DNA from: a bacterium
GTDB taxonomy: Bacteria; ARS69
Assembly: GCA_025774805.1 (NCBI GenBank)
Contig: JALGZR010000153.1
Span: 1-6,073 of the forward strand
Length of the DNA stretch: 6,073 nucleotides
Reading direction: 5' to 3'
Shown: in pieces, positions 4,052 to 6,073 of the stretch
How the letters are laid out: every line of letters begins with the position of its first letter
Position numbering within the stretch: position 1 is the stretch's first letter
Notes under the pieces: model-generated
The model's input: the letters and a program-made list of their open reading frames with translations, nothing else
Told to the model about the DNA's origin: nothing
Databases searched by the model: none
Position numbers and translations under genes: made by a program

Positions 4052-4743
4052 ATGACTTCAGGGCCGCTCTTCGTGTTCGACCTGGACAACACCCTCTATC
4101 CGCCCCATGTGAACCTTTGGAGGATGGTGGACGCAAGGATCGAGCAGTATGTGCAGGAACGTCTCGGCGTGGACCCTGGGATCGCCAGTCGGGTCCGCAA
4201 GGATTACCTCCGGGAGTACGGGACCACGCTCCGCGGGCTCATGCACCATCACGGAGTGGCCCCCACCGAGTATCTCGAGTTCGTGCACGACGTCCCCATC
4301 CCCGAGATCGTACCAAAGCGTCCGGCGTTGGGAGAGATGCTCTCCTCTCTTCCGGGCAGGCGCGTGGTGTTCACCAACGGGTCCGAGTGTTACGCTCGCC
4401 GGGTGCTCGCGGCGCTGGGCGTGTCGGACCTGATGGACGGGATTTACGGTATCGAGTTCATGGAATATCGAGCCAAGCCGTCCCCTTACCCGTACGGGAA
4501 GCTGCTTCAGGTTACCGGGACCCGTCCGCAGGATTCCCCGGGACCCGTCCGCAGGATTCCCTTTTCTGCGAGGACCTCCGGGAGAACCTGCTTCCGGCTT
4601 GCGAGCTGGGGATGTTCACCGTCTGGGTCGGAGGCGGGGAAGAGGGGTTTCCCGCGCGCGCCATCCTCGATGACGTGTGCGACCTTCCCCGGATCCTTCC
4701 CCGGTTCCTGGGCGACGGGACCGGCGCCACGCGGAAGGCCTAG
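4052..4743 (+). pseudogene. HAD-superfamily phosphatase (pyrimidine 5'-nucleotidase-like), frameshifted by a 23-bp tandem duplication
   Basis: The gene begins two bases after the pmbA stop. It encodes a HAD hydrolase of the subfamily I type annotated as pyrimidine 5'-nucleotidase, which removes phosphate from nucleoside monophosphates or similar small phosphoesters. Motif I is FDLDNTLYP with D10 (nucleophile) and D12; motif II is VFTNGS with T108; the motif III lysine is K142 in RAKPSPYPYG. After residue 162 the frame is lost at a perfect 23-bp tandem repeat (4515-4560). The continuing frame runs to a TGA at 4817-4819 and gives a Ser/Arg/Pro/Gly-rich tail typical of off-frame GC-rich DNA (255 residues in all). 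Removing one copy joins QDS to LFCEDLRENLLPA and then LGMFTVWVGG, which is motif IV with its E-D pair at residues 166-167, and yields a normal 222-residue protein ending at TAG 4743. As read here the product lacks motif IV and is probably inactive. A sequencing or assembly error cannot be excluded. The substrate is an inference. Confidence 0.9.
4515..4560 (+). repeat. Perfect 23-bp tandem duplication inside the HAD gene
   Basis: Two identical adjacent copies occupy 4515-4537 and 4538-4560; each begins CCGGGACCCG and ends GGATTCC. The unit length of 23 is not a multiple of three, so the extra copy shifts the frame. The absence of any mismatch points to a very recent event or an artefact. Confidence 0.97.
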
Positions 4744-4818
4744 CGCGGCAACGGGTCGGGAGCGAGCGGCTGGCGGGAGGCCCGAACCCCTTGGGCCCCC
4801 ACGAACAGGAGGATCCTG
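4744..4818. other. 75-bp spacer before the RNase E/G gene
   Basis: This is the only intergenic stretch of any length in the window. It is GC-rich and ends in a strong ribosome binding site. A weak GGCCC/GGGCC inverted repeat is present, but there is no following T-run, so I do not call a terminator. No convincing -35/-10 pair is visible. The RNase gene may be read through from upstream or have a promoter I cannot recognise. Confidence 0.5.
4807..4812 (+). promoter_or_regulatory. Ribosome binding site of the RNase E/G gene
   Basis: AGGAGG lies 6 bases before ATG 4819, a near-ideal Shine-Dalgarno sequence. It decides the start in favour of the long form of the protein that includes the N-terminal low-complexity region. 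Confidence 0.88.
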
Positions 4819-6073
4819 ATGACGGAAGAAAAAAGGAAACGCAGGTTCTGGAAACGGGGCCCGCGCCGGAAGAAGGCAGGCGAGGCGCCCGTGCCGGCCA
4901 CTGACGGAGAGCAGTCCGGGACTCCCGGCTTGCCGGAAGCGGAGGGCCAGCCGGATCGGGAAGGGGCTACGGGGACGGCTGCCGGCGCAGAGACGGAAGG
5001 GGACCTAAGGGCCGAGGCGGCCCCCGAAATTCTCGAGGTTGCAGAGGCGGTCACCTCGCAGTCCGGCGGAAAGAAGGGACGCCGCCGAAGCCGCCGACGC
5101 GGGCGGGGGCGCGAGAAGCCGGGGTCCGGCGCGGTTTTGGAGGAGGAGAAGCCCGCCCACGCACGGGATGGCGAAGACGCGGGGGACCTTGCGGACGAGC
5201 GTCACGCGGACGAGGAGGGGAAGGCGGGGGAATCCGGGGATGCCGCCGAGGAAGCGGAATCTTCCCAAATCCCGCGGAAAGGCCGCCGTCGAAGCCGACG
5301 GCGTGGGCGACGGCGCGGGAAGAAGGATCCGGCCGCTGCCGGGGAGGCAGCGGTGCTCGAGGCCGACGCGGAGGAAGATCCCGTATCCGGTGCGGAGATC
5401 CCTGCGGGTGCAGAAGGCACCTTGTCCGAGGAGGCGTCCCTGCAGGAGGAGGAAGAAGAGACCGAGGGAGAGGAGGAGGAAGAAGCCGTCCCGGCGGGAT
5501 CGGGCCCGAGGAAGGTGATGCTCATCGACGGGGTGAACCCCGAGGAAATCCGCGTGGCCATCGTGAGCGACGGGGTTCTCGACTATTTCGAGGTGGAGAA
5601 CCAGCGAAGGAAACAGTTCAAGGGGAACATCTACAAGGCGAGAGTGGTAAACGTTGCCCCGGCGATCGAAGCCGCCTTCGTGGATTTTGGAGGCGGGAGG
5701 CACGGATTCCTTCCCCTGAATGAATATTGCGGCGGGGCCCTCATCGATAACCTCGATTCGTGGAACGAGGGGGACAAGCGCCCCCATCTGCGCTCGGGGA
5801 CGGAGATCCTCGTGCAGGTCACCAAGGAGGAGTCTCCCATCAAGGGGGCGGCGGTCACGTCGTACATCAGCATCGCGGGGCGGTACCTGGTGATGATGCT
5901 GGGAATGAAACGGTACGGGATCTCGAAGAAGATCACCGGCGAGAAGGAGCGGGAGCGGATCCGGAAGAACATGGAGAAGCTCTCGTACCCCGACCACCTG
6001 GGGTTCATCGTACGGACCGTGGGGGCGGGCCAGCCGCTGAAAGACCTGCGGGCGGACCTCACAAACCTGGTCA
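4819..6073 (+). CDS. rne: Ribonuclease E/G family endoribonuclease with long N-terminal charged extension (3' end outside window)
   Basis: Enzymes of this family cleave single-stranded RNA in mRNA decay and rRNA/tRNA processing. The frame is open from ATG 4819 to the right edge (418 codons). Residues 1-233 are low-complexity and probably disordered. Arg/Lys clusters at 5-19, 85-98 and 153-169 alternate with Ala/Gly/Glu-rich acidic stretches, ending in an almost all-Glu run at 210-222. From M234 the sequence matches the start of E. coli RNase E: MLIDGVNPEEIRVAIV, FKGNIYKARV (267-276) and AAFVDFGGGRHGFLPL (285-300) of the S1 domain, then KGAAVTSYISIAGRYLV (342-358). GFIVRTVGAG (395-404) carries R399-T400, equivalent to the 5'-monophosphate sensor R169-T170. 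The catalytic Asp residues, Zn-link cysteines and C-terminus lie beyond the window, so RNase E cannot be separated from RNase G. Disordered extensions at the N-terminus are known in actinobacterial members, whereas E. coli carries its disordered region at the C-terminus. Confidence 0.93.
   Translation, partial: MTEEKRKRRFWKRGPRRKKAGEAPVPATDGEQSGTPGLPEAEGQPDREGATGTAAGAETEGDLRAEAAPEILEVAEAVTSQSGGKKGRRRSRRRGRGREKPGSGAVLEEEKPAHARDGEDAGDLADERHADEEGKAGESGDAAEEAESSQIPRKGRRRSRRRGRRRGKKDPAAAGEAAVLEADAEEDPVSGAEIPAGAEGTLSEEASLQEEEEETEGEEEEEAVPAGSGPRKVMLIDGVNPEEIRVAIVSDGVLDYFEVENQRRKQFKGNIYKARVVNVAPAIEAAFVDFGGGRHGFLPLNEYCGGALIDNLDSWNEGDKRPHLRSGTEILVQVTKEESPIKGAAVTSYISIAGRYLVMMLGMKRYGISKKITGEKERERIRKNMEKLSYPDHLGFIVRTVGAGQPLKDLRADLTNLV
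5077..5109 (+). repeat. Arg-rich repeat, copy 1, in the RNase extension (second copy at 5281-5313)
   Basis: This segment encodes GRRRSRRRGRG (residues 87-97). A related copy 204 bp downstream, at 5281-5313, encodes GRRRSRRRGRR (155-165). By hand alignment the two share 26 of 33 bases. Six of the seven differences are synonymous third-position changes and one changes Gly to Arg. This pattern suggests an old internal duplication, or convergence, kept by selection on the peptide, plausibly for RNA or protein binding. Confidence 0.8.
5281..5313 (+). repeat. Arg-rich repeat, copy 2, in the RNase extension
   Basis: This segment encodes GRRRSRRRGRR and is followed by RGKK. It is the partner of the copy at 5077-5109, with a 68-residue period. 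Acidic Ala/Glu-rich sequence flanks it on both sides. Confidence 0.8.

Follow-up and report, generated by a model that had tools for sequence, protein, structure and literature searches.

An exact 23-bp tandem duplication interrupts a HAD-family phosphatase gene on a bacterial contig, and it may be asked whether the second copy exists in the organism, as a recent mutation or as a reversible on/off allele, or whether it arose in the assembly. The sequence-only reading of this DNA had left all three explanations open. The window that we analysed is the whole of contig 13 (G000:C13), 6073 bp in length, from a bin with 5.06% estimated contamination.

The duplication and the reading frame

We observed that the 23-bp unit CCGGGACCCGTCCGCAGGATTCC at 4515-4537 is identical to the adjacent sequence at 4538-4560, and that the match extends for 1 additional base, to 4561; TRF reports the same repeat as 4515-4561 with a 100% match. 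No perfect tandem pair with a period of 13-60 appeared in 20 shuffles of the window, and the pair is thus not a chance occurrence. The HAD-family gene begins with ATG at 4052. Because a period of 23 is not a multiple of 3, the frame is lost at the second copy, as the sequence-only reading had stated, and translation from this point is off-frame to the TGA at 4817-4819. The family sequence LFCEDLRENL... is found instead in the frame that terminates at TAG 4741-4743. The relevant features are as follows.

4515..4537, + strand: first copy of the 23-bp unit CCGGGACCCGTCCGCAGGATTCC (identity with 4538-4560; TRF)
4538..4560, + strand: second copy of the unit (opposite a 23-column gap in the DNA alignment, 10/10 relatives; protein frames continuous in 22 relatives)
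4052..4537, + strand: 5' part, residues 1-162, of a predicted TIGR01993-type HAD phosphatase gene (motifs DLDNT, TNGS and KPSP; TIGR01993 score)
4538..4819, + strand: off-frame tail after the duplication (without family resemblance; its TGA overlaps the ATG of the RNase E/G gene)
4561..4743, + strand: displaced 3' part of the HAD gene, LFCEDLRENL...RKA, 60 residues, then TAG (same residues in frame in relatives)

The proposal that a single copy would restore a protein of 222 residues proved correct in its count, with 162 residues before and 60 after the break, and relatives of this protein are mostly near 220 residues in length. The overlap of the tail's stop codon with the RNase E/G start (TGATG at 4817-4821) is probably a coincidence.

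One way in which a full-length product could be made from the sequence as it stands is a -1 shift of the ribosome within the duplicated stretch, which would add 8 residues to the protein. The second copy does read PGTRPQDS in the displaced frame and is directly followed there by LFCED; however, we saw no slippery heptamer in register on reading the sequence, and a frame break at this site occurs in no relative. Ribosomal frameshifting here would be a highly improbable explanation, the least likely of those we considered.

Identity of the interrupted gene and its neighbours

The 5' part of the gene matches the TIGR01993 profile (pyrimidine 5'-nucleotidase) with 161.2 bits over residues 7-160, which is above the curated cut-off of 142.9 bits, and also matches the Pfam Hydrolase profile; it is 81-83% identical to its nearest relatives. 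The TIGR01993 match ends at position 158 of the 183 in the profile, whereas relatives reach position 182, and the scores of intact relatives, 173-186 bits, come from matches to almost the full model. From the profile match, the interrupted gene is predicted to encode a TIGR01993-type pyrimidine 5'-nucleotidase, although it departs from that family in that the final part of the model, including motif IV, lies in another frame on the contig and no complete same-frame domain is formed. With both copies present, motifs I-III remain in the product but motif IV (CED) is lost; this loss, together with that of the frame, had been noted earlier and was confirmed by comparison with the relatives. To judge from the known catalytic motifs of the HAD family, such a product should be inactive. 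In this group, motif IV (window positions 4566-4581) reads CED, with ED replacing the DD that is usual there; of the close relatives only L055 departs from this, with CDD.

The neighbouring genes encode an NAD kinase and an RNase E/G-type protein, truncated at opposite ends of the contig, as well as RecN, a GNAT acetyltransferase and a TldD/PmbA-type protein, and we saw no frame break in any of these other genes of the window. The RNase E/G-type protein carries an N-terminal extension of ~230 residues (window 4819-5510) that is acidic-rich and includes two basic KGRRRSRRRGRGR-like blocks.

The site in related genomes

Comparison with close relatives had been named in the sequence-only reading as a check, and we carried it out on six close loci found by scanning species genomes and on about 30 loci from relatives of CSP1-8. 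In all 22 close relatives that can be read at this site, the unit occurs once and a single frame passes through the motif IV region, which reads SLFCED..ENL or a close variant; the single-copy state is thus confirmed as ancestral. In the DNA alignment, each of ten relatives has one copy, with a 23-column gap opposite the second copy of the contig. The one-copy relatives include G066, in which the gene lies on a 2.32-Mb contig. Among 24 family members we found no genome of the same species (the best DNA match was 83%), and no near-identical DNA was found in plasmids; in one family member, G080, the HAD gene was not found. Since every readable relative is in frame with one copy, the second copy is, by this comparison, peculiar to the contig.

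These observations bear directly on the suggestion of a reversible allele, in which loss or gain of a 23-bp copy by slippage or recombination would switch the enzyme on and off. One of two exact tandem copies can, in principle, disappear again, and copy-number switching of tandem repeats has been described in other systems (PMC12817950). The locus resembles tandem-repeat phase variation in that an exact tandem unit, here the 23-bp pair, lies at the frame break and changes the reading frame. It differs in having two copies only, in the lack of copy-number variation among relatives (one copy in 22 of 22 read, with neither two or more copies nor a degenerate repeat at the site in any) and in its target, which is a soluble housekeeping-type enzyme and not a surface, restriction or regulatory gene. 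We therefore hold it very unlikely that the enzyme is switched in this way. It would be just as surprising if the two-copy state were a real reversible allele by which some members of an uncultured deltaproteobacterial population switch off a nucleotide-salvage or house-cleaning phosphatase.

Selection and age of the break

A real and recent 23-bp duplication in the sampled population would also have broken the gene, and the product would then be predicted to be an inactive protein, made up of the 162 residues with motifs I-III and about 93 off-frame residues, in which motif IV and the end of the core fold are missing. The perfect identity of the copies and the one-copy state of the relatives fit a recent event, and the absence of the gene from G080, as far as it was searched for there, suggests that it may be dispensable. 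In addition, dN/dS for the displaced 3' part against the nearest relatives is 0.20-0.43, higher than the 0.07-0.10 among intact relatives, although these values are based on only 7-11 nonsynonymous differences, which are too few to be separated from drift. The displaced part keeps the family sequence and contains no stop and no second indel. When columns invariant among 16 relatives were examined, the only change, H to R, lay after the break; a change at a residue fixed in 16/16 relatives is a hint of relaxation and counts against an assembly error, but several intact relatives also show one such change. Because the 3' part keeps its family sequence with few changes, the break, if real, would be recent, and decay is not shown by the data. 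Two further points weigh against a real duplication, namely that an allele of this kind should reach a consensus contig only if common, and that similar lesions in other genes of the bin, described below, favour a shared technical cause. On balance, we consider a real, recent duplication possible but rather doubtful.

Origin of the contig and companion duplications in the bin

The RecN encoded in the window is 84-86% identical to RecN of CSP1-8 and CSMAG_819, and at the DNA level both align over the entire window with 83% identity. In contrast, the window RecN shares only 34-36% identity with the RecN proteins of the bin itself and of the bin's kin, and the second RecN of the bin, on contig 19, shows 56-66% identity to RecN of the bin's own family. 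Since the window RecN fits CSP1-8-type Deltaproteobacteria and the contig-19 RecN fits the family of the bin, the contig is most likely misbinned and would derive from a CSP1-8-like deltaproteobacterium.

In the other contigs of the bin (1.49 Mb read), we found five further tandem duplications, exact and in two copies, among those with units of 20 bp or longer; the units measure 21, 61, 62, 66 and 88 bp. Three of the five split conserved genes, and the assembly thus contains, outside the window, gene-breaking exact two-copy duplications of the sort that an assembly artefact would leave. An exact 62-bp duplication (L114 15173-15297, G000:C43) separates the Radical_SAM and SPASM domains within one gene; an exact 61-bp duplication (L156 7102-7223, G000:C22:27102-27223) parts a protein kinase domain (Pkinase) from a PD40 propeller; and an exact 88-bp duplication (L121 5471-5648, G000:C50) falls within a gene for a DHH phosphoesterase, where it repeats part of the DHHA1 domain, the domain continuing in another frame. 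The radical-SAM/SPASM gene seems to have another frame break upstream, and the DHH phosphoesterase gene adjoins a TruB-like gene.

Control sequence amounting to 0.68 Mb, comprising 400 kb of G066 and 281 kb of other loci searched with periods up to 120, contained no exact pair with a unit of 20 bp or more; about 2.3 were expected against 0 seen (P about 0.10), a difference that is not significant alone and is suggestive only. Counting the 23-bp pair, four of the six duplications are not multiples of three in size, as expected where coding constraint has not filtered them, and the end homology at all six junctions is only 0-2 bases. Since contig 13 and the remaining contigs of the bin apparently come from different organisms, what the lesions have in common is the assembly. 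We infer that all six have one cause, in the assembler or in gap filling.

Assembly error as the preferred explanation

Of the three explanations with which we began, assembly error came out ahead, owing to the companion lesions and the probable misbinning of the contig; the on/off allele gained no positive support, and recent frameshift mutation stands as the doubtful alternative described above. We consider it probable, though far from certain, that the second 23-bp copy is an assembly error. The same kind of lesion occurs on contigs of apparently different organisms within one assembly; conserved genes are broken irrespective of multiples of three, at junctions with 0-2 bases of end homology; and the one-copy relatives are in frame, the other genes of the window are intact and the 3' part of the HAD gene keeps its family sequence. 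Such an error might have arisen if two contig ends overlapping by 23 bases were joined without removal of the overlap, the joining step being our suggestion, and in the living cell the gene would then contain the unit once and encode an ordinary, intact HAD-family nucleotidase.

Some observations run counter to an assembly error. The 46-bp repeat can be spanned by ordinary short reads, so that the error must come from a joining step, and we found no large overlap flanking the single short N run, a scaffold gap, in the contigs read. Also, it has been argued for M. tuberculosis that errors of assembly are more prone to collapse repeats than to expand them (PMC12817950). On the other side, according to a survey of frame transitions across prokaryotic genomes, most singleton frameshifts that are validated by homology should be sequencing errors (PMC3711429). 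The present case is like these in that one gene carries one indel, which homologues confirm, and it differs from them only in the size of the unit and in having companions in the same bin; their usual causes are sequencing or assembly error, or recent mutation (PMC3711429).

As biology, the duplication matters little. As a caution it matters more: conserved genes in the bin seem to be broken by short, exact tandem duplications as a class, and the bin seems to include at least one foreign contig, so that claims of pseudogenes or phase variation from this bin need read support. A minor observation on the same bin is that one of its contigs, of 2935 bases (L065, G000:C3), is masked or withheld, since every base reads as N.
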